A DNA stretch of 23,441 bases. Origin: a virus. The stretch lies in IMG/VR virus record IMGVR_UViG_3300040751_000800, positions 1-23,441 of that record; one strand, given 5' to 3'. The translations under genes and the position numbers were made by a program. The notes under the pieces are model-generated. The model was not told the origin of the DNA. It ran no database searches and worked only from the letters and a program-made list of their open reading frames with translations. This document shows, in pieces, positions 5,783 to 23,441 of the stretch (its first letter is position 1; every line of letters begins with the position of its first letter).

Positions 5783-8700
5783 GACTACCTTTCGACCAGA
5801 CCAATCTACAGAAACCCTCACAGAACCGACTGTCTCCGGTTTCTTCTCCGAGGACACAACCTCTGGATCTCCAGACCTCTGCAAACTATGCGAAGCTGGA
5901 ATCACTGAAGCAACTCGGCAAGGGCATCTTCTCCATCGGTGATGCGATCTTTCAGAATTATTCCAAAGACATTCAAGACGAGAAGAAACGTAAGGATTTG
6001 TTGATTCAATATGATCTCAACGAGTTCAGTGCAGAACAAAAAAGAAACTTTGAGACAGATCCTCCCGAATCACTTTCTGAAGCATATGCCAGAATTTCTG
6101 CTGGAGTCGATGGCACGAAGGATCAACCAGGGTTTGCTAAGAAATTAGCAGACAAGTATGAATTTTCAGAAAAGGAAATGGAGGTCTATCTTCGGAAATA
6201 CGAAGTCCAGAACCGTTTGATTGCCATGGCGCAACAGACTCAACGAGAGAATGAATCGAAGGTCTTCCAAACGACAACAAAACTAGACCAGGGTCTAACG
6301 GATTTCCAAGAAGGATTTAATCTCAATCAGTACGAAGGATTTTCCAAGACAGAACTTGCCGAAGCACTGGACACTCAGTTACTCGACATTTGGAACAGTT
6401 CCACTTCTGGACTCAATCCAGTTTTAAAACAACGTTTAGAAATTGAGACCTATGAGGATCTGAAAAAACTGAAACAAGGGTATCTCGCTCAGTATGACGC
6501 AAAAGTACTAGAAGAAAATCAAGCAGAGTTAGCCCGAAAGGTCAGCAAGGTCTTGAGCCAGGATCTGGATCGGGAAGCGGCACTAAGCGAAGTCAGCAGG
6601 ATTTTGAACAAGGCAGAAGAAAATGGGCTGATTAACGAAAAAGACAAAGTAGATCGGTTTCTGACAGCACAGACTTTATATGACCGGACTCTTTTTGAAC
6701 GATTGAAACGAGAAGATCCCGAAAGGCTTCTGGAGATGTTCCAGGAGCAAAAAGAAGGTGGTGAGAGTTTATTCCCTGGGATTTCTCCCTTGGAAAGAGA
6801 ACAAAAGTTGACAGAAATCTTTGATGTCATCAGAGGGAACAAGGCAGAAGGTCTTGGCAGAGTCCGCAAGGGAGTGGATGATGTCCTCAACGAAGTTCTG
6901 AATCCGAATACAGATCAGGCAGCACTTGAACTTTTCTTTGAGTCAGAGGTCTCCAAGTTACCTGCAGAGGAACAACCTGTTCTCCAGATAGCGTTTGATT
7001 ACGCAAAACGGTTGCGTGGTCGGATGCCAGATGTCAACAAGACGAATCTGCTGTACTTGGAAACTCAGTTGTTGGAATCAGAACCTGCGATGTTCGATGA
7101 GTCTGGAGGAAAAGATCCATCTGTTGGGTACAAGCGCACTCAGTTGAAAAGATTTAAGGATCAAGTTAAGGCAATCCGTGATTTCCGATTGTCGGACATG
7201 GCGTTGTCATGGCAGACCATGAATCCCCAAGCTGATCCTTTTGCAGAATCTTCCATCAAAGCAAATTTAGAACATCAGATCAAATTTCTGGGGAACCCGA
7301 ATATTTCATTAAATGAACTGGTTCGATCCGGAAGAGTCCGACTGTTGCCCAACCAAGTTCAACAAGCATCCATTCTTCGTTTAGAGTCTTTGGAATCCGG
7401 AGTGGAATACGCTCAGGCATTGGATGCAACTCTTCGGAATGCTGGTCCTTTTGCTCCATATCTCATGGAACAACTGGGTCGAGACAAAAAAGATGGAGGA
7501 ATTGGACTAGAACCCTCTGCTTACTTCAACAAGATCTTCCTGCAAAGTGGGCAACCCCAAGGAATCCGTAACAATATTTTAGAAAATCTAAGAAGTTCTG
7601 TCCGTAATCGGGAAGAGAACAACCGGAACTTCGGAGTTCTAGGGAAAGGAATTCCAAAGGTAGATTTCCAGAGGAGAGTCCGAACTCATCAATCGATAAA
7701 AGATTTTAATGCATCGTATCCGAAGAACATCCCAGGGATCTCTGCTTTTGTCGATAGTTCCATTGACATGGTTGAAGGATACACCTTGGAGATGCTCAGT
7801 CGAGATCCGGATTTAGATGTCCAAGATGCCATTGACACGGCAGTTTCTCAGTTGATTGATTTCAACTACGTTTTCTTGGATCCAGAATTTTCTGGTGGAA
7901 CAGGACGTAAGGTAAGAATTCCCAGAGGGGAAATGGGAGATCTGACACTGGAACAAATGGAAGATGCCCTAAGTGTTTACGTCAAGGAAGCCTATGATTC
8001 CATCCAAGACCCCAGAATCCGTGAAACGGCAGAAGACCGAGAGTGGGCATGGTTCAACAATCCGGATGACACAGGATTCAAGTTATACACAAGGACTCCG
8101 GATCTTCAGAGTTGGGCAGCAGTTGGAGGGGATCTAGCGGAGATCAGTTACGAAAAACTCCGAGTCATTGCATCGCTCCCAGAGACAACAAAACAGGCAG
8201 CAACGTCAACCCAGGTTTTGGAAACGACCACAGATTTTGGACTAACTCCTGGGCTACAGAAAGGCGCAAAGCAAGCTGGAGAAGAGATCAAGATGGGAAC
8301 AGGAACAACTCTTTGGGACATCTTGGGTAGTGGCTTTGAACTGATGGAAGAAGGTAGTGAGTGGGTCATGAAATCAGTCAGGCCGAAAAGAGAATACGTC
8401 AAAAAACGATCAGACAATCAGACCCGTGCAGCATCACCGAAGAAAGTGGTTGAACCAGAAACGAATCCGATTTTGGAAGAATTGACCTTGTTGCAGAACG
8501 AGGCCCAAACCATGGAGGAAACTGGAGGGATTGAGAAGCTCAATGAGTATGCTTCCATTGTGAAGGAAAGGATTCAGTTGAATGATCTCAAGGGAGCACA
8601 GAGGTATCTGCGTTTAGTCAGAGCACAGTTGGCAGAAGAGAAAACAAAAGCGGAAGCGATGAACGATCTTCTCAACTTCAGAAATTCCAGAAATCAATGA
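5779..8700 (+). CDS. Large internal virion / DNA-ejection protein (gp15-like position)
   Basis: A 973-residue, charged, mostly helical protein with no signal peptide and no obvious membrane segment. The N-terminal 40 residues are low in structure-forming residues (QNRLSPVSSPRTQPLDLQ). Long Glu/Lys/Gln helices follow, compatible with coiled coils (residues about 120-330). The C-terminal 90 residues are again a Glu/Lys helix. Position after the gp14-like gene and before two more large virion genes fits the middle component of the ejection machine, gp15 in T7 (747 residues). No enzyme motif was recognised, so the call rests on size, composition and order. Confidence 0.6.
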   Translation: MRLPFDQTNLQKPSQNRLSPVSSPRTQPLDLQTSANYAKLESLKQLGKGIFSIGDAIFQNYSKDIQDEKKRKDLLIQYDLNEFSAEQKRNFETDPPESLSEAYARISAGVDGTKDQPGFAKKLADKYEFSEKEMEVYLRKYEVQNRLIAMAQQTQRENESKVFQTTTKLDQGLTDFQEGFNLNQYEGFSKTELAEALDTQLLDIWNSSTSGLNPVLKQRLEIETYEDLKKLKQGYLAQYDAKVLEENQAELARKVSKVLSQDLDREAALSEVSRILNKAEENGLINEKDKVDRFLTAQTLYDRTLFERLKREDPERLLEMFQEQKEGGESLFPGISPLEREQKLTEIFDVIRGNKAEGLGRVRKGVDDVLNEVLNPNTDQAALELFFESEVSKLPAEEQPVLQIAFDYAKRLRGRMPDVNKTNLLYLETQLLESEPAMFDESGGKDPSVGYKRTQLKRFKDQVKAIRDFRLSDMALSWQTMNPQADPFAESSIKANLEHQIKFLGNPNISLNELVRSGRVRLLPNQVQQASILRLESLESGVEYAQALDATLRNAGPFAPYLMEQLGRDKKDGGIGLEPSAYFNKIFLQSGQPQGIRNNILENLRSSVRNREENNRNFGVLGKGIPKVDFQRRVRTHQSIKDFNASYPKNIPGISAFVDSSIDMVEGYTLEMLSRDPDLDVQDAIDTAVSQLIDFNYVFLDPEFSGGTGRKVRIPRGEMGDLTLEQMEDALSVYVKEAYDSIQDPRIRETAEDREWAWFNNPDDTGFKLYTRTPDLQSWAAVGGDLAEISYEKLRVIASLPETTKQAATSTQVLETTTDFGLTPGLQKGAKQAGEEIKMGTGTTLWDILGSGFELMEEGSEWVMKSVRPKREYVKKRSDNQTRAASPKKVVEPETNPILEELTLLQNEAQTMEETGGIEKLNEYASIVKERIQLNDLKGAQRYLRLVRAQLAEEKTKAEAMNDLLNFRNSRNQ

Positions 8701-16736: not shown

Positions 16737-17116
16737 TCGAAACTCGAAACTTCAAACATAGAGAACTCAGTTGTAATTGCTGTGGTGGCAATCAGATGAA
16801 CGTGGCTTTCTTAGAAAAACTACAGTTGATCCGAGATGAATATCAACAACCGATGGTCATTAGTTCTGCCTACCGATGTCCACGATATAACGATGAGATT
16901 TCATCCACTGGACCCACTGGACCACATACGACAGGAAGAGCCGTAGACATTCTGATCTACGGTCAGGAAGCCTATGATCTTATGAAACTTTGTCTCAAGT
17001 ACGGAATGACTGGACTCGGATTCAAGATGGCTGGACCGAGGAGTACTAGGTTTCTTCACTGTGACGATTTAACCAATACTGCGAAGTCTCCCCGTCCCTG
17101 GATCTGGTCTTACTGA
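16733..17116 (+). CDS. Endolysin, M15-type D-Ala-D-Ala carboxypeptidase/endopeptidase
   Basis: A 127-residue zinc peptidase of the peptidase M15_3 type, which cuts peptide cross-links in peptidoglycan. The substrate-cleft motif SSAYRCPRYND lies at residues 44-53. The zinc ligands are His65 and Asp72 in PHTTGRAVDI and His109 in FLHCDD. A CNCCGG cluster near residue 14-19 resembles the NFK-xEL-CxC start typical of these phage enzymes. There is no signal peptide, so access to the wall requires a holin, candidates for which lie just upstream. The end overlaps the convergent integrase gene by 7 bases. Confidence 0.9.
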   Translation: MIETRNFKHRELSCNCCGGNQMNVAFLEKLQLIRDEYQQPMVISSAYRCPRYNDEISSTGPTGPHTTGRAVDILIYGQEAYDLMKLCLKYGMTGLGFKMAGPRSTRFLHCDDLTNTAKSPRPWIWSY

Positions 17117-18063
17117 TCTTTCTGTACTAGCTGTAACAGTTTATCTAACTTTTCCTCTAACGACTGAAAATCCGTGTGTCGCAGGTTCGATTCCCGCTCT
17201 GGCCACTTCATCGTTTTTGTAACATCCTCTGTATCCTCTCTGTAAATTCCTAACGAATTCACTAATTCTTGTAGCGGCAAATGAGTCGTATTCAGATAGA
17301 GTTCTGTAGTCGATAATCGCTCATGTCGTAGCAGATGTTGCACGTGTACTGGGTTCATGTTTCCGGACAATAGTTCAGTAGCAACAGAAGCTCTATAACC
17401 ATGGAGTGGTTTCGGTCCATCTAAATCGATAGACTTCTGAAACTTTCTCATCGAATACGTGAGATGACTCAGTTCTTTAAAATGGTGATCCAAGTAATTA
17501 GTTTCCCCCTCATGTTTTTCGATCTGTAAAAACTCCAGTAGCTTCGGATGTATCGGGAGAATGGAGTCTTGTTTATTCTTTGTTGTCCAATCGTCTTTTC
17601 CTTCAATACGGATTCCAGATCCGATATCTGTCCAATTTAAATGGAACAGTTCTCCTGCCCTCATTCCGGTATATCTGAGCATGTAATGAGTTCTCCGAAG
17701 AATTTGATATCTCCGTGATCGTTGTGCTCTGTGATTAAGAATGGTTTCGATGATCTCCAGTTGATGAGTTGTCCAGACCTTCGGAATCTTTTTGTTCACT
17801 TTCAGCATCGGCACATAAAATTTCTGATGATTTAAATATTTATGACACCAGTTCAAATAAGCCTTCAGTGATCGTAAATGAGAATTGATTGAACCATCGG
17901 ATAGACCTTCGGACCGGAGATGATCGACAAAGTCCTTAAAAGTTTCGTAAGTAATGGAATCGGATGTCGAGAAGGCTTGCCATCGGGCTAATTGAGGTCG
18001 ATAGGTATCAACAGTCCTCTGAGAACGATATGTCCGTAGATAGTCGATATATTGATCAATCAT
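17110..18063 (-). CDS. int: Tyrosine recombinase, phage integrase
   Basis: A 317-residue integrase. The N-terminal core-binding (SAM-like) part spans residues 1-85 and the catalytic domain about 95-265. Catalytic residues are visible: Arg135 in YTGMRAGEL, a beta-hairpin Lys at 162 or 164 in WTTKNKQD, His221 and Arg224 in LHGYRAS, His247 in LLRHERLS, and nucleophile Tyr256 in TTELYLN. The remaining residues form a tail whose positions 287-301 (WPERESNLRHTDFQS) are the antisense translation of a tRNA-Phe 3' half, meaning attP lies within the gene. The final residues (SLEEKLDKLLQLVQ) form a short Leu-rich helix. The gene overlaps the repressor gene by 4 bases, so both are probably on one message. 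Confidence 0.93.
   Translation of the reverse strand: MIDQYIDYLRTYRSQRTVDTYRPQLARWQAFSTSDSITYETFKDFVDHLRSEGLSDGSINSHLRSLKAYLNWCHKYLNHQKFYVPMLKVNKKIPKVWTTHQLEIIETILNHRAQRSRRYQILRRTHYMLRYTGMRAGELFHLNWTDIGSGIRIEGKDDWTTKNKQDSILPIHPKLLEFLQIEKHEGETNYLDHHFKELSHLTYSMRKFQKSIDLDGPKPLHGYRASVATELLSGNMNPVHVQHLLRHERLSTTELYLNTTHLPLQELVNSLGIYREDTEDVTKTMKWPERESNLRHTDFQSLEEKLDKLLQLVQKDQ
17162..17206 (+). other. attP: attP core: 3' half of tRNA-Phe(GAA)
   Basis: On the + strand the sequence runs from GACTGAAAATCCGT (anticodon loop with GAA anticodon and the 3' anticodon strand) through GTGTC (variable loop), a T arm with TTCGATT loop, TCTGGCC (3' acceptor strand), the discriminator A and a following C. No D arm or 5' half precedes it, so this is a partial tRNA copy, the usual form of a phage attachment core. 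It lies inside the integrase reading frame, about 45 bases before the end of that gene. The direct repeat TGTAACA at 17132-17138 and 17218-17224 flanks it and could be an arm site. Confidence 0.85.
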
Positions 18064-18692
18064 AGTGCCTTTACTAAACGAACAACTCTTCCGACAATAA
18101 TGAACCCGTCACTATCATCAGCCGTAATCGTGAGATCCTTGTAGATCGGATTATCAGAAACAATCCGGTATTCATCTTGAGCTACCCGTTGCACCCGTTT
18201 GACATGAAGAGAATCCCAGAGTCTCAAGACATAGACTCCGTCACCGAGAAAGCCACTGTTCATATGAACGAGAATCGTATCTCCGGAACCCATCAAAGGA
18301 CTCATGCTGTCACCGACTACGGTAATGAAGGCTAAATTGCTATCCGGCAACTTTGGTAGCCACTCGGTAATCACAGAGATTGTTTCTCCGTTTTCATCGG
18401 CAGTCAGCGTCCCTGCTCCTCCACTAGCTTCGGTATCGAACTTTCGGATCAGCCGATAGTTATCATCTCTGATCACTTCTTCCGTTTTGACCTCATCTAT
18501 ATTTCCAAAGGCCTTTTCTATCTTGCTCAGAAAGTAGGATGAATCCTGTTTTCCTTGAAGAACTCGGTTCACTTTAGATCGATCCCATCCAATGGCATCT
18601 GCTATCTCCTGCTGAGAAAATCCCTGGGACTTCCGCCACAGATCAAAATTTTCTGATATTTTTTGCACTTTATTGTTGACTCGTTTAATCAT
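18060..18692 (-). CDS. LexA/CI-type autocleaving lysogeny repressor
   Basis: A 210-residue repressor. Residues 15-65 form an HTH (LWRKSQGFSQQEIADAIGWD and the recognition part RSKVNRVLQG). Residues about 86-208 form a peptidase S24 domain. Ser129 in VVGDSMSPL and Lys165 in LHVKRVQRV are the likely catalytic pair. An Ala93-Gly94 bond (GGAGTL) lies 36 residues before the Ser, matching the LexA/CI cleavage spacing. By family knowledge it should self-cleave with RecA after DNA damage. No Shine-Dalgarno is apparent before the start, so the mRNA may be near-leaderless. The divergent early operon starts 65 bases upstream, and the integrase gene follows. Confidence 0.9.
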   Translation of the reverse strand: MIKRVNNKVQKISENFDLWRKSQGFSQQEIADAIGWDRSKVNRVLQGKQDSSYFLSKIEKAFGNIDEVKTEEVIRDDNYRLIRKFDTEASGGAGTLTADENGETISVITEWLPKLPDSNLAFITVVGDSMSPLMGSGDTILVHMNSGFLGDGVYVLRLWDSLHVKRVQRVAQDEYRIVSDNPIYKDLTITADDSDGFIIVGRVVRLVKAL

Positions 18693-18706
18693 TTCTGATC
18701 AGATAT
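18676..18706 (+). promoter_or_regulatory. Candidate rightward early promoter
   Basis: A TTGACT -35-like hexamer at 18676-18681 is followed, after about 18-19 bases, by a weak -10-like stretch (CAGATA/AGATAT, 18700-18706). It overlaps the repressor start codon and contains the palindrome at 18694-18703, so repressor binding there would block it, as in lambda-type switches. The -10 is poor, and the assignment is inference. Confidence 0.35.
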
Positions 18707-18741
18707 GCACTCTGCTGCATCAGAGTGAACGGTTAACGGTT
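18694..18741. promoter_or_regulatory. Operator region between repressor and early operon
   Basis: Three elements lie in 48 bases. TCTGATCAGA (18694-18703) is a perfect 10-bp palindrome. CACTCTG and CAGAGTG (18708-18714 and 18721-18727) form a perfect 7-bp inverted repeat with a 6-base spacer. AACGGTT is repeated in tandem (18728-18741). The first two are plausible dimer sites for the S24 repressor; the tandem heptamer could bind another regulator, such as the HTH of the first early gene. Confidence 0.55.
18702..18729 (-). promoter_or_regulatory. Candidate repressor promoter (leftward)
   Basis: On the - strand a TTCACT -35-like hexamer (18724-18729) precedes a CATATC -10-like stretch (18702-18707) with 16 bases between. 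A transcript would begin only a few bases before the repressor ATG at 18692, which fits the missing ribosome site. The elements overlap the 7-bp inverted repeat, allowing autoregulation. Weak consensus match. Confidence 0.3.
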
Positions 18742-18756
18742 AGAACATGGAGTGAA

Positions 18757-19692
18757 ATGCAAGATACCAACCTTCTCAATACCACTCAGGCCGCCAAGGC
18801 TCTTGGAGTCAGTGTCGATCAGATACGAAGAATGATCAGTAATGGTCAGATCAAAAGTATCCAGACCCACGATAGATCCCCTCATTTAATCCCCACTGCA
18901 GAAATCCTCCGGAACACTGAGATAAAACCGAGATCCTCTCGGATGTCCTTTGAAGAATACTGTGAACTGGATGGACTGAATGCGTCTTTGATCAAGAGAC
19001 TGAACAAGTCTTTAAACCATTACCTCTCTACTCCGTCAGATCCGTCTTCAGCGATGGCAAAGGGAACCGCCATTCATGACAGCATTGAACTGCGACTAGC
19101 CGGAAAATCTTTCGGGGAAAAGTATGTGGTTGCGCCCAATGTGGACAGAAGGACGAAAGCAGGACGAGAGGAATACGATCAGTTTGTAGCAGAAGAAAAA
19201 AGAACGGTACTGAAGAAGGAAGACTACGAAGACGTAGTGCTGATGACCGAGTCAGTTTTCAGACATCCTGAGTTCTGGAGAATTATTCCTAATGCGGAAG
19301 TAGAACAGGTGATCACCTGGGAAGAAAACGGTATCCGAGCAAAAGCGAGACTTGATTACAGTGACGAGGGACAGCACCTCGTAGTGGATCTGAAGAGTGC
19401 TCAGGATGCTTCACCATACGGATTCAAGAAAGCAGTCACACGGTATCAGTACGACATTCAAGCCAACTGGTATCGAAGAGCTTATCAATCTGTTTCCGGT
19501 CACTACCCAGAGTTTTTATTTTTAGTTGTCGAAAACACAGCACCCTACAACGTAGCTCTTTACAAATTGTCCGATGAATTGATGCACAACGCAGAGTTCA
19601 AGATCAATCAGGCAGTCGAATTATACAAACAGTATCTCTCTGGAGAGATCTATAGCCAGGGATACCATGAGGACGTAATGGAGTTGTCATGA
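18757..19692 (+). CDS. HTH DNA-binding domain fused to RecE-like PD-(D/E)XK exonuclease
   Basis: With the ATG at 18757 (GGAG 4 bases before it) the protein has 311 residues. An upstream in-frame ATG at 18673 would overlap the repressor gene and the operators, and is unlikely. Residues 6-54 are an excisionase/MerR-like HTH (LLNTTQAAKALGVSVDQIRR, then a wing with SPHLIP). Residues 64-300 resemble the DUF3799/RecE exonuclease family: the GTAIHDSIE motif with His107, acidic residues near 181-183, Asp200 in KARLDY, Asp211-Leu-Lys213 in VVDLKSA, and a YQYDIQANWY helix (230-239). This should be the 5'-3' exonuclease partner of ERF. As first gene of the early operon it sits where Cro or Xis is usually found. 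Confidence 0.82.
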   Translation: MQDTNLLNTTQAAKALGVSVDQIRRMISNGQIKSIQTHDRSPHLIPTAEILRNTEIKPRSSRMSFEEYCELDGLNASLIKRLNKSLNHYLSTPSDPSSAMAKGTAIHDSIELRLAGKSFGEKYVVAPNVDRRTKAGREEYDQFVAEEKRTVLKKEDYEDVVLMTESVFRHPEFWRIIPNAEVEQVITWEENGIRAKARLDYSDEGQHLVVDLKSAQDASPYGFKKAVTRYQYDIQANWYRRAYQSVSGHYPEFLFLVVENTAPYNVALYKLSDELMHNAEFKINQAVELYKQYLSGEIYSQGYHEDVMELS

Positions 19693-20564
19693 AGCAGTGC
19701 AAACTATGCCGGAAGGAGATGTCGGTAACAGCCAATAACCAGAGGTACTGTGGAGATCCTTGTACCTATAAAATGTATGAACGAAGACATACAAGGCTAA
19801 AACCTAGTAACTGTGCAACCTGCAATAGCACCTTCCAACCAAAAACGAATATCAATGTCTACTGTTCCAAAGAATGTCAGAAAGTCGGAAGCAAGAAGTT
19901 CTATCAAGAGTATTTAAAGAAGAGACGAGAAGAACGTTCAATCAGATTAAAGGACAAACCAGAGAAGGTTTGTGCTTATCGGCACTGTAACCGGAAATTC
20001 AAAGATGTTCATCCAAACAAACGCTTCTGTAGCACGATCTGTCAGAGAGGGAACGAAAGAGTAGTTGAAAACGAAAAGTGGTTGAACAGAAAAAAGGTCC
20101 ATTGTGCAGCATCTACTTGTTCCAAGCTATTCATTCAGAAGAACTCCAACCAGATCTACTGTAGCCATGTGTGCAAGCGATTAGTCAGAAACCTTCGGGA
20201 CCGAGAACGATACAAACAGAATCCGAATAGGCCATGTAGCCGATGTAAACAACGGGTTCTATCAAAGAATTCCAAGGCAAAGATTTGTGATCGATGTTCC
20301 AAGGATCTTCAGCAGATCAAGATGAATAAACAGATGTTTAATGCTCCGGAATCCGACATTGTCTTTGAGCCGGAGAGCAATGACTTCTTCAGTAGTCCTT
20401 GGACCCGTTTACAGAAAAGACATTTCATCGATCTGGAACCGACCGACTCTTCCGTAGAGTCTTCGGATTTTAAGGATCAAATTCAAAACTATTTAAAGAA
20501 AGGAGGAAAGATTACGAAGCTATCAGTCGGTTTCTGTCACTCACCCATTACGATGGAGCAGTAA
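19689..20564 (+). CDS. Protein with five tandem zinc-finger (treble-clef-like) modules
   Basis: A 291-residue basic protein that begins in the ATGA overlap of the exonuclease gene. Five four-Cys modules are visible: C4-C7/C21-C25, C42-C45/C59-C63, C95-C100/C114-C118, C139-C144/C158-C162 and C183-C186/C200-C203. Every module has exactly 13 residues between its Cys pairs, and most have Tyr or Phe before the third Cys (YCGDPC, YCSKEC, FCSTIC, YCSHVC). Lys/Arg-rich helices separate them. The tail (about 220-291) is acidic, then has FKDQIQNYLKKGGKITKL, a short motif seen at the ends of other small phage regulators. DNA or RNA binding is likely; the precise role is unknown. Its place between exonuclease and ERF suggests a recombination or replication accessory. 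Confidence 0.7.
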   Translation: MKQCKLCRKEMSVTANNQRYCGDPCTYKMYERRHTRLKPSNCATCNSTFQPKTNINVYCSKECQKVGSKKFYQEYLKKRREERSIRLKDKPEKVCAYRHCNRKFKDVHPNKRFCSTICQRGNERVVENEKWLNRKKVHCAASTCSKLFIQKNSNQIYCSHVCKRLVRNLRDRERYKQNPNRPCSRCKQRVLSKNSKAKICDRCSKDLQQIKMNKQMFNAPESDIVFEPESNDFFSSPWTRLQKRHFIDLEPTDSSVESSDFKDQIQNYLKKGGKITKLSVGFCHSPITMEQ

Positions 20565-20809
20565 TGATCAGTTTAGACAAAGCAAAATCACTGATGAAAG
20601 GACCGAACTATATGGAGGAAATGGTCATGGAGACACTCAAAGCCTCTGATCTCTCGTTAATACCGGAGGATACGGAAGTAGATTTCGATGATGAAGAACT
20701 ACTGGAAGCCTTCCAGATTGCTCAGTCACAGATTCATTTGAAAAACTATCGTCTAGCGAATTCCGTTCTCCTTTTCTGTCACCGACTTCTCAAGGAAAGA
20801 TATGAGTGA
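20564..20809 (+). CDS. Small acidic protein of unknown function
   Basis: An 81-residue protein coupled to the zinc-finger gene (TAATG) and overlapping the ERF gene by 8 bases. The middle is strongly acidic (PEDTEVDFDDEELLEAF) and the C-terminal half looks helical (QIAQSQIHLKNYRLANSVLL). No membrane segment, no known motif. The tight overlaps support it as a real gene of the recombination operon, perhaps an accessory to ERF or the nuclease. Not recognised. Confidence 0.6.
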   Translation: MISLDKAKSLMKGPNYMEEMVMETLKASDLSLIPEDTEVDFDDEELLEAFQIAQSQIHLKNYRLANSVLLFCHRLLKERYE

Positions 20810-21260
20810 ACTATTTTTACAATTGACATCAGAACTATCGTCATCACTGGATACCCAGGAACTCGACAAGGCACTCGCCAAGGTCAAAGAGGAGATGAGT
20901 GCTCTCGTAGAAAAGGACGGAACCAATCCCCATTTCAGAAACAGTTTTACTTCTCTGTCCGCACTACTGAAAGCAGCAACTCCGGTACTCGCTAAACATG
21001 GACTCTCTCTTCAGCAGCATCCAACGAGTTCTAAGTTAGTATCCAGACTGTCTCATTCATCAGGTCAATGGATCGTATCAGAATATTCGTTACCGACACA
21101 CAAGGATGATCCCCAGGGAGACGGTTCAGCAATCACATATGCACGGAGGTACTGCTACCAGAGCATTCTGGGTCTAGCTGGAGACATGGATGACGATGGA
21201 AATGCCAGTATGCCAATTAGTGCTGGCCCTCCGATGCCGAGAACCGGAGTGAAACGATGA
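20802..21260 (+). CDS. erf: ERF-family single-strand annealing recombinase
   Basis: A 152-residue ERF protein, shorter than P22 Erf (204), mainly in the C-terminal part. The family signature is clear: helix EMSALVEKDGTNPHFRNSFT, then LLKAATPVLAKHGLSLQQ, and the conserved block GDGSAITYARRYCYQSILGL with AGDMDDDGN (residues 107-134). By family knowledge, such proteins form rings on ssDNA and anneal complementary strands, working with a 5'-3' exonuclease such as the RecE-like enzyme encoded three genes upstream. It overlaps the next gene by 4 bases. Confidence 0.92.
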   Translation: MSELFLQLTSELSSSLDTQELDKALAKVKEEMSALVEKDGTNPHFRNSFTSLSALLKAATPVLAKHGLSLQQHPTSSKLVSRLSHSSGQWIVSEYSLPTHKDDPQGDGSAITYARRYCYQSILGLAGDMDDDGNASMPISAGPPMPRTGVKR

Positions 21261-21475
21261 TCGAAGGATATCTGGAAGACATGCTGATGGAACGAAAGTA
21301 CGGAGTCTCTCTCCAAGAGATTCAGAATCTTTATAGCGTGATGACTTGGCAAGTGTATCTGCGATTACTCCAAGAAGACAGAAGGGAAACCGTTCCCTCG
21401 GATCTAGTGGAAGCTGCAGAACGTTATGTCATAGCCTTTAACGAATGGGATCAACAACGAAATTTAGAGGACTGA
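21257..21475 (+). CDS. Small helical protein of unknown function
   Basis: A 72-residue protein starting in an ATGA overlap with the ERF gene and ending directly before the next start. It is predicted mostly helical and acidic (IEGYLEDMLMERKYGVSLQE; later PSDLVEAAERYVIAFNEW). The stretch KYGVSLQEIQNLY could be a short HTH, but it is too short to assert. Not recognised; the call rests on tight packing in the operon. Confidence 0.55.
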   Translation: MIEGYLEDMLMERKYGVSLQEIQNLYSVMTWQVYLRLLQEDRRETVPSDLVEAAERYVIAFNEWDQQRNLED

Positions 21476-22345
21476 ATGTTACCACAACTATCACTCGTGG
21501 AAGATGATTTTCTATCAACAATTCGTAAGGTTTCCAGAGATGGATACTGTCGATTACACATTGATCCAAGTGACGCAAAGTCTTTACTGGTAAAAAACAC
21601 GAACAACCGGAAACTCCGACAAACCGTAGTCGATTACTATGCGAATGAAATGATCAATGGGAATTGGATAGACAACGGAGATCCGATCCGGATTGCACGG
21701 TCAGGGCGGTTACTGAATGGACAGCATCGGTTATCTGCACTGGTCAAGGCAGGAGTAACGCTACCGTTTCATTTTCTATCGAATCTATCAGAAGAATCTT
21801 TTGAGCAGATGGACAATGGAGCAAAGCGAACACTGAATGACAACCTTGATATCGTCTCGGATCATGTATCGATTCTCAATGGGATTTATCAGTTAAAAGA
21901 AGGAGTGATGCAACGGAAGAGAACCGGACCATCTCAGATCAAATCGGTAGTGACAGATGAGATCATCGAATTGATGGAAGAGATGCCGAGGACAAAGAGA
22001 CGGTTTATTCGTAGTCAGTACGTCAAAGCAGTGACAGTGACTTGTGTTCTCATTGGGGAACCAAAGGAAAGAGTTTTTAGTCGATACGAGAACATCATCA
22101 CGTTGACTCCAACAAATTCACTGGAACTGAACTTCAATCGGTGGCTTACCAACAATCTTACTTATAAAGGAGCACGGGTCAGTCATTACTTCTCAATTTC
22201 TCGGTTGGTTCCAGCATTCTATAAGTTTTATACGAGCATGGAATCCGATAAGCAATTTCGATTGGGAGAGGATGAATCCAAGGAGATTCTGAAATCTCTC
22301 TCTGTGTATCTGAAAGACTATTACAGATCACTGAATCACCCGTAA
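21476..22345 (+). CDS. ParB-like nuclease-domain protein
   Basis: A 289-residue soluble protein. Residues about 28-125 contain a ParB/Srx-like block: an N-terminal helix with YYANEMINGNWIDNGDPIRI, then the signature GRLLNGQHRLSALVKAGVTL (GxxxxxGxHRxxA, residues 77-96), and a following FEQMDNGAKRTLNDNLDI segment, all shared by phage proteins usually labelled ParB-like or hypothetical. The C-terminal 160 residues are helical and basic. Such proteins bind or cut DNA or bind CTP; here the activity cannot be set. It closes the tightly packed part of the recombination operon. Confidence 0.7.
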   Translation: MLPQLSLVEDDFLSTIRKVSRDGYCRLHIDPSDAKSLLVKNTNNRKLRQTVVDYYANEMINGNWIDNGDPIRIARSGRLLNGQHRLSALVKAGVTLPFHFLSNLSEESFEQMDNGAKRTLNDNLDIVSDHVSILNGIYQLKEGVMQRKRTGPSQIKSVVTDEIIELMEEMPRTKRRFIRSQYVKAVTVTCVLIGEPKERVFSRYENIITLTPTNSLELNFNRWLTNNLTYKGARVSHYFSISRLVPAFYKFYTSMESDKQFRLGEDESKEILKSLSVYLKDYYRSLNHP

Positions 22346-22353
22346 CCAGAATC

Positions 22354-22457
22354 AGACAGGGTATAGCCAGTGGGCCTTCCTCCCTAAACAAATGGTCCGA
22401 ATTCATTACTGGTTAATCAATACGAGAGTTCCGCATTTCTCTACGATGACCCTGTCT
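22354..22457 (+). ncRNA. Candidate structured RNA in the early operon gap
   Basis: In the only sizeable noncoding gap of the early operon, AGACAGGGT (22354-22362) pairs perfectly with ACCCTGTCT (22449-22457). Inside, 22364-22371 pairs with 22408-22415 (8 bp, one G-U), continuing through 22372-22376 with 22394-22398 (5 bp, one G-U) and leaving a 9-base bulge and a 17-base loop. A weak 4-bp helix (22425-22428 with 22439-22442) would complete a three-way junction. The element ends 19 bases before the next small gene. Function unknown; could be an mRNA cis-element or a small RNA. Confidence 0.4.
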
Positions 22458-22476
22458 CCTCACACATGGAGTAGCA

Positions 22477-22596
22477 ATGGATGCAACACTTCGCTTTTCT
22501 GTTTTCCTCACGTTGGCCTCACTAGCTTTCTTGCTACTGACTCCAGCGATCATCAATTCCATTAACTTCTGGACCAAAGTGTTCAGCCATTTCTAG
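22477..22596 (+). CDS. 39-residue single-pass membrane peptide
   Basis: A short reading frame with a GGAG ribosome site 5 bases before its ATG. Its stop codon lies within the AGGAGATC site of the next gene. The peptide has a single hydrophobic segment (FSVFLTLASLAFLLLTPAII, residues 7-26) and a short polar, aromatic end (NFWTKVFSHF). It is an unusual product for a recombination operon; possible roles are membrane anchoring or superinfection interference, both speculative. Not recognised. Confidence 0.55.
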   Translation: MDATLRFSVFLTLASLAFLLLTPAIINSINFWTKVFSHF

Positions 22597-22603
22597 GAGA
22601 TCA

Positions 22604-22861
22604 ATGAGAAAGATCGTACAGATCAGTACGCTTGTCCACGAAGACAATGTTTTCGTATATGCCTTGTGCGATGACGGGACTCTCTGGTGCTGCATCAAAG
22701 GGGTAGTCGATGAATTTATGCTCCCGATCAATGCTATGACAGATGACGATTGGGGGTTAGTTGCAAACGTACCTCAGATGGTTAAATGTCCTGATTTCCA
22801 AGAGAGTTCGGAGGCTATTCAAACATTACGTAATAAATTTTTTAAGAAATATAACTACTAG
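22604..22861 (+). CDS. Small protein of unknown function
   Basis: An 85-residue soluble protein with a good AGGAGA ribosome site. The first 50 residues look like a small beta sheet (KIVQISTLVHEDNVFVYALC, then DDGTLWCCIKG), a strand pattern like a single beta-propeller blade; the C-terminal 25 are helical and basic (LRNKFFKKYNY). The next gene follows after 9 bases. Small beta proteins of this kind are common in phage early operons. Function is unknown. Confidence 0.6.
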   Translation: MRKIVQISTLVHEDNVFVYALCDDGTLWCCIKGVVDEFMLPINAMTDDDWGLVANVPQMVKCPDFQESSEAIQTLRNKFFKKYNY

Positions 22862-22870
22862 GAGAAATCT

Positions 22871-23284
22871 ATGGACTTAGGATTTTCAATTGAAATCGAA
22901 TACCCGAAAGAAATGATTCAAACCTCTCCGTTGCCCCCTGGAGAGCATATGGTCGAGATCCAATACATTGGTAGCAAACCAACGAAGTCCGGTGGCTGGA
23001 TGCTAAACATGAAGTTAGCAAACGATCATGGACATGTCTGGGATAATTTCAATGTTGGTCATGCATCTGAAACCACTCGTCAGAGTGCTCAGAAGAAACT
23101 GGGAAGAGTAGCCCGTTGTAGTGGTCTGGAAGGATCGTTCAGTAATACGGATGATCTGTTAAACAGAACCGTAGCAGTCGAACTCGGATTAAATCAGAAC
23201 GGGTACATCGAAGTGCTGAAATACAAGGAGAAACTGTCACAGGTTCCGGTGGCGGATACTGATGACGATGAACCTGAGTTTTGA
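22871..23284 (+). CDS. ssDNA-binding protein of the DUF669 type
   Basis: A 137-residue protein with an excellent AGGAGA ribosome site. The layout LPPGEHMVEIQYIGSKPTKS followed by GGWMLNMKLAN and VWDNFNVGHASETTRQSAQK, with a later GLEGSFSN segment, fits DUF669-like phage proteins, an OB-fold group that protects single-stranded DNA. The C-terminus is very acidic (DTDDDEPEF), as in SSB tails that recruit partners. It is encoded next to the resolvase and downstream of ERF and exonuclease, which supports the role. It overlaps the next gene by 17 or 23 bases. Confidence 0.8.
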   Translation: MDLGFSIEIEYPKEMIQTSPLPPGEHMVEIQYIGSKPTKSGGWMLNMKLANDHGHVWDNFNVGHASETTRQSAQKKLGRVARCSGLEGSFSNTDDLLNRTVAVELGLNQNGYIEVLKYKEKLSQVPVADTDDDEPEF

Positions 23285-23441
23285 ATTACCTTTTCCTCCC
23301 TCGGTAAACACCTACTACCGGAGTTCTTTCCGTAGTAGATCGGTTTATCTGTCAAAAAAAGGACGGGAATTTCATCAACTAGCGTTAGTTGGTCTCATGG
23401 AGTTAAGCGATGCAGGAACATCCGATACTCTACACCCGTCC
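23268..23441 (+). CDS. RusA-like Holliday junction resolvase (5' part, cut by window end)
   Basis: The first 58 codons are visible. The N-terminus LSFELPFPPSVNTYYRS followed by VYLSKKGREFHQ is the typical start of RusA-family resolvases (PPSVN-YYR, then LSKKGREF). The catalytic Asp residues lie beyond the window. An ATG two codons upstream (23262) is an equally possible start. The gene begins inside the ssDNA-binding protein gene, indicating coupling. RusA cuts Holliday junctions made during replication and recombination. Confidence 0.82.
   Translation, partial: MNLSFELPFPPSVNTYYRSSFRSRSVYLSKKGREFHQLALVGLMELSDAGTSDTLHPS

Follow-up and report, generated by a model that had tools for sequence, protein, structure and literature searches.

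An HTH_17 domain joined to a RecE-family exonuclease in the first early gene of a group of phages

The first gene of a phage's rightward early operon (18757–19692, + strand; open for 311 amino acids) encodes, judging from its sequence, a single polypeptide in which an N-terminal winged helix of the HTH_17 family is joined to a double-strand exonuclease of the RecE family (activity predicted). As a rule, phages make their recombination nucleases and their early regulators as separate proteins. In the sequences of relatives as well as here, the join is real and preserved; the role of the HTH is a proposal only. We propose that the nuclease works with an Erf-type partner and that the added HTH_17 domain represses its own operon via an AACGGTT repeat in the leader. 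The mechanism is conjectural, and we give this reading a probability of roughly 40%.

Gene order and the two domains

The window (the whole stretch of DNA that we analyzed) is one virus record, 23,441 bases long. Its left part has genes for tail and internal virion proteins (assigned by eye), followed by an integrase, a CI-type repressor, and the early operon that begins with the fusion gene. The repressor (18060–18692, - strand; HTH_3 plus Peptidase_S24, by Pfam and PHROGs) is the directly divergent neighbor of the fusion gene. The initial annotation placed the fusion at the Cro/Xis position and reported no separate Cro or Xis gene in the window. Both statements stand, the second as far as HTH_17 genes are concerned: the fusion gene is the first gene directly divergent from an S24/CI-type repressor, and the window has no HTH_17 match besides the fused domain. 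The same is true of G001, a relative of 37.1 kb that is probably complete because its ends repeat over 99 bp. The gene for lambda-type Cro is likewise the first one divergent from CI, and the fusion, like Cro, is a candidate DNA-binding product. Unlike Cro, the fusion carries a nuclease and is not of the HTH_3/Cro type by family search (HTH_3 scored 12.1 bits, under the Pfam cut-off of 23).

The fusion gene is followed by genes for a cysteine-rich protein, an Erf-type single-strand annealing protein (20802–21260, + strand, 1.1 kb downstream of the fusion; Pfam and PHROGs), a phrog_5931 protein, and an SSB-like protein, with the start of a RusA-like gene (by eye) at the contig end. In recombination, the nuclease probably works with the Erf-type annealer. 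The cysteine-rich (zinc-finger-like) protein is encoded directly after the fusion (19689–20564); G003 and L006 have a different sequence for its N-terminal two thirds but keep its C-terminal part. The slot at 21476–22345 is also variable: it holds phrog_5931 here and a separate HTH_17 gene in G002, L004, and G008. G007 also has a serine-recombinase-like ORF (by eye) immediately downstream. We found no tRNA genes in the 17 sources searched and no Rfam matches at 17000–23441.

Pfam assigns residues 6–52 (18772–18912, + strand) to HTH_17 by a small margin (27.9 bits versus a curated cut-off of 27; E = 2.8e-6) and residues 87–297 to DUF3799 (91.6 bits versus 26; E = 8.5e-26). As a whole, the RecE/DUF3799 nuclease domain, of the PD-(D/E)XK type, comprises residues 63–311 (18943–19689, + strand), so the linker between the domains is short (residues 54–62). 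In NCBIfam, the protein matches RecE, and the excisionase-like model TIGR01764 ("excise") scores 25.3 bits, short of the 28.8 required (E = 1.5e-5). In PHROGs, it matches exonuclease VIII (E = 3.6e-52) and also phrog_575 and phrog_66, both at about 1e-3. HTH_17 is above the cut-off in 9 of 10 records, and the tenth (L017) lacks all of the gene but its C-terminal part. As a protein, the HTH of L014 is slightly below the Pfam cut-off (26.6 versus 27). AF2 predicts HTH helices at residues 9–16, 20–28, and 48–52 with moderate confidence; its confidence in the wing is low. Residues 1–62 have a net charge of +4, and the remainder of the protein has a net charge of -11.

The nuclease half belongs to the RecE/DUF3799 family, as judged from its profile match, its predicted fold, and its active-site residues. 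Among solved structures, E. coli RecE is the closest in sequence (E = 9.4e-18), and the AF2 model of the fusion matches this structure (PDB 3h4r) with Z = 20.8 and an rmsd of 2.4 over 201 residues, at 23% identity. It also matches models of viral exonuclease VIII. The AF2 model was built from 27 sequences and has a mean pLDDT of 81.9, with most of the nuclease above 85, the HTH at about 64–68, and residues 35–54 below 50. (A first model, from 10 rows, had a mean pLDDT of 49.8 and was dropped.) H107, E183, D200, D211, K213, Q235, and Y239 are invariant in all 27 aligned rows; given the RecE/RecB family motif, we take these seven to be active-site residues. Their D-x10-D-x-K spacing, like the fold, is shared with E. 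coli RecE (exonuclease VIII; DUF3799, phrog_412). The VIA list of structure matches says little about the fold of the HTH, because less than one fifth of its rows reach residues 1–27. In contrast to the E. coli system, the annealing protein next to the nuclease is of the Erf type and not RecT.

Translation, selection, and distribution of the fusion

In IMG/VR, we found 15 full-length relatives of the fusion (85–99% identity) and one partial relative. The window and the full-length relatives (16 of 16 sequences) share the ATG at 18757 and the GGAG ribosome-binding site before it (18749–18752, + strand), and all 15 of these relatives keep the HTH. Together with the above-cut-off matches to HTH_17 and DUF3799, this bears out the earlier description of an excisionase-type HTH as the N-terminus of a RecE-like nuclease. 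No other upstream in-frame start is present in 8 of the 14 sequences that were checked. Within HTH codons 1–53, 33 variable sites have synonymous changes only and 11 have non-synonymous changes. Because the ATG is shared, the HTH is present in 15 of 15 relatives, and the changes are mostly synonymous, the HTH must be translated and constrained. That translation begins after the HTH, an objection raised in the initial annotation, is contradicted for a sole start by the shared ATG, the lack of other upstream starts in 8 of the 14 sequences, and the selection on the HTH.

Pairwise dN/dS for codons 1–60 ranged from 0.03 to 0.21 in nine pairs. For the nuclease, eight pairs gave a defined ratio (0.02–0.08), and the ninth pair was saturated. 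The HTH had the higher value in all eight pairs for which both were defined. This might suggest that the HTH is the leftover of a regulator, joined by chance and without a role of its own, and that the leader motif is merely part of the translation start region. But as judged by these ratios, the HTH is still under strong purifying selection, and the predicted second-helix residues (S19, V20, D21, Q22, R24, R25, M26, and I27) are invariant in 10 aligned rows, so we consider a leftover very improbable. Some pairs hinted at reduced synonymous change in the HTH, but this was absent from 20-codon windows over 14 sequences.

An additional product that lacks the HTH is possible, since Met63 is invariant in ten aligned rows and might be an internal start. 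A Shine-Dalgarno score did not discriminate between ATG1 and ATG63, in part because the stretch that was scored stopped four bases short of the ATG. In the window, Met63 is preceded by a 6-bp hairpin, but this is not conserved (it is perfect in just 5 of 16 sequences).

The initial annotation suggested a search for the same domain pair in other phages. Beyond the 15 full-length close relatives, we did not find it among the loci and matches listed. We used four other RecE-like nucleases as seeds in viral_contigs, which listed 179 loci, 178 of them with a nuclease ORF; 12 of the 178 are cut by a contig end, leaving 166 assessable. (Relatives of two of the seeds are overrepresented among these loci; for these two seeds, the loci are the best 80 of 226 and the best 80 of 81.) None of the 166 assessable loci listed has room for an HTH, that is, at least 40 residues before the nuclease domain; the fusion family has 60. 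Therefore, within the material surveyed, the fusion seems to be confined to this group of phages. Six further named relatives that we aligned also lack a fused HTH.

Other searches gave similar results. When the fusion was compared to phage records, the best 60 of 843 matches all began at residue 20 or later, as did the best 40 of 75 matches in plasmid records. Four early-starting matches that we inspected by eye (L019, L020, L055, and L057) have no fused HTH. The HTH alone matched 69 phage records (best E = 0.03); among the best 60 of these there was no exonuclease, and those with annotations were mostly excisionases, HTH proteins, or hypothetical proteins. A search of genome_contigs for prophages or hosts found no relative of the fusion or of the phage's terminase. 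An Erf-anchored search found three distant phages (L069–L071), with no RecE-like ORF detected in the stretch covered. And in the titles and abstract openings of a mostly non-subscription literature, we found no paper on an HTH_17-RecE fusion. This kind of nuclease is known; within this material, its pairing with HTH_17 appears to be new.

The neighborhood has a counterpart in phiV10 (Uetakevirus), to which the phage is distantly related through an 863-aa virion protein (27.5% over 79%; about 25–28% in phiV10-like podophages). The early region of phiV10 has RecE beside the regulator AlpA, but unlike the HTH described here, AlpA is separate and adjoins a RecE-RecT fusion. This shows that regulators of a broadly HTH_17 kind and RecE are already neighbors in related phages.

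The leader repeat and proposed autoregulation

Upstream of the fusion gene are an inverted repeat, CACTCTG-N6-CAGAGTG (18708–18727), which is a candidate operator for the repressor, and a tandem AACGGTT AACGGTT (18728–18741, + strand), which is a candidate site for the HTH. Thirteen repressor sequences are of three types: eight are like the window's, G007, L006, and L011 form the second type, and L015 and G008 form the third. In the N-terminal half, type 2 has 27–31 of 61 residues in common with the window and type 3 has 40–45 of 71, while the C-terminal halves of both types are nearly identical to the window's (131–134 of 137–139 residues; G008 lacks this half). In other words, three swapped DNA-binding halves are found on a near-constant S24 half, and the operator region, including the inverted repeat, changes along with them, as in immunity-type switching.

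The spacer between the repressor and the nuclease also varies with repressor type, except for AACGGTTA, which adjoins the ribosome-binding site and does not differ among the 16 leaders. Of the tandem repeat, the second copy and an A are invariant in all 16, and the first copy varies; it is poorly preserved in L006 (4/7), L011 (4/7), and L014 (5/7). In G001, a close same-strand pair of AACGGTT is found at the fusion promoter only. In the same scan, the window, G007, and G008 each had one more close pair elsewhere, with one mismatch, so not every contig has the motif at a single place.

We propose that the HTH would bind the AACGGTT repeat in the leader of its own gene and that, as the fusion protein accumulates, early transcription would decrease, which would be a Cro-like autoregulation by a recombination enzyme. 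The HTH may in addition give the nuclease a general affinity for DNA. The conservation of AACGGTTA across three repressor types fits a Cro-like autoregulatory site, as does the confinement of the pair in G001 to the fusion promoter, and binding of the HTH to leader operators is plausible. Furthermore, according to PMC11963761, there are HTH_17 factors, RdfS among them, that bind and repress or autoregulate their own promoters, and BldC, another HTH_17 protein, binds direct repeats of 9 bp. RdfS, BldC, and Pukovnik Xis belong to the same domain family as the fused HTH (Pfam above cut-off and predicted helices), but they are small separate proteins. RdfS regulates its own promoter (same source), much as we propose for the fusion.

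Several observations argue against autoregulation. The leader repeat is 7 bp long instead of BldC's 9, and its first copy is weakly kept in the three relatives named above. The invariant block adjoins the ribosome-binding site, so AACGGTTA may be conserved for a role in this region or in translation. The wing of the HTH is modeled with low confidence, L014's HTH is under the Pfam cut-off, and a consensus scan of the fusion leader found no sigma-70-like promoter. Also, the leader site could be bound by another protein instead of by the fused HTH. A candidate is F15, a family of Cro/CI-type HTH proteins of 114–115 amino acids found in eight mapped contigs that reach further, which could be a second regulator. 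(F15 is at 7822–8166 on the - strand of G001, in flipped coordinates; there it has 114 amino acids, is conserved, is on the opposite strand, and resembles MqsA, HipB, and DicA below cut-offs.) We are more tentative about a stronger version of our proposal: that the exonuclease sits in Cro's position and, with its own winged HTH on the early leader, shuts off its own operon, with the level of nuclease setting early transcription. Tethering of the nuclease at the promoter may also occur.

The main rival to autoregulation is that the HTH serves the nuclease only, by giving it a non-specific or structure-specific affinity for DNA or a docking surface (for Erf, for example), with no regulation of the operon. 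The short linker and the positive charge of the HTH on an otherwise negative protein would fit this, as would the domain's retention where CI and integrase are lost. And RdfS and BldC can bind without a clear consensus (PMC11963761). But all 166 of the assessable related nucleases listed manage without an HTH, and the conservation of AACGGTTA is independent of repressor type. We view a nuclease-serving HTH as possible, if somewhat doubtful.

Integrases and separate HTH_17 genes

The initial annotation also suggested that the fusion might regulate its own operon or act in excision. The regulatory idea is partly supported by these sequences, since all 16 leaders retain AACGGTTA even though the DNA-binding half of CI and the operators change. 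The excision idea is not: two relatives keep the HTH without an integrase, G001's repeat pair is at the promoter only, and an excisionase-type gene stands apart from the fusion in three relatives.

The window's integrase (17110–18063, - strand) is a XerC/D-like tyrosine integrase, by Pfam, PHROGs, and NCBIfam. Its gene overlaps both of its neighbors, so there is no room next to it for an attP of the usual kind. Twelve mapped contigs cover the whole interval between the peptidase and nuclease genes, and 10 of them have an integrase. (G002, L006, and L017, whose sequences begin within this interval, and the unmapped L008 and L010 are not counted.) The other two, L007 and G008, have lost the integrase together with most or all of the repressor, by deletions with different end points (L007:5300–5560 and 25960–26400 of the G008 contig), and judging from these losses they are probably becoming obligately lytic. 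The fused HTH is intact in both, so it is not kept only with a cognate integrase. The HTH codons of L015 and L016 (which is G008) differ by nine synonymous changes and one non-synonymous change. G008's leftover fragment of the repressor also looks constrained (15 synonymous and 8 non-synonymous differences in 72 codons), so the loss of the integrase and repressor may be recent.

The initial annotation considered a distinct xis or cro gene elsewhere in the phage as evidence against its proposal. As far as HTH_17 genes are concerned, the window and G001 have none, but G002, L004, and G008 have a separate 63-aa HTH_17 gene downstream of the fusion. In G002 and L004, its product scores 30.9 against TIGR01764, above the cut-off of 28.8, and also has a match to phrog_66 (E = 3.2e-9); in G008, it is below the cut-off (20.8). 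As G008 has no integrase, its separate HTH_17 gene may not encode an excisionase either.

Could the fused HTH nevertheless be the phage's excisionase (recombination directionality factor), so that one protein combines Xis and nuclease? Its weak matches to TIGR01764, phrog_575, and phrog_66 point that way, as do the integrase in most contigs and the lack of another HTH_17 match in the window or G001. The closest solved Xis is Pukovnik Gp37 (4j2n), with E = 1.5. But the HTH persists, mostly with synonymous changes, in phages without an integrase; L004 has both an integrase and a separate HTH_17 gene; and G001 has no second close AACGGTT pair. These comparisons weaken the case for an excisionase, and we think that this role is unlikely. 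The position of the gene, the independently kept leader repeat, and the persistence of the HTH without an integrase fit autoregulation better than excision. We caution that a match to HTH_17 is not sufficient to call a protein an excisionase.

This fusion is a simple protein for probing both recombination and regulation. If such a fusion is stably kept where Cro or Xis is usually encoded, a single molecule would tie the amount of a recombination enzyme to the control of the lytic program.
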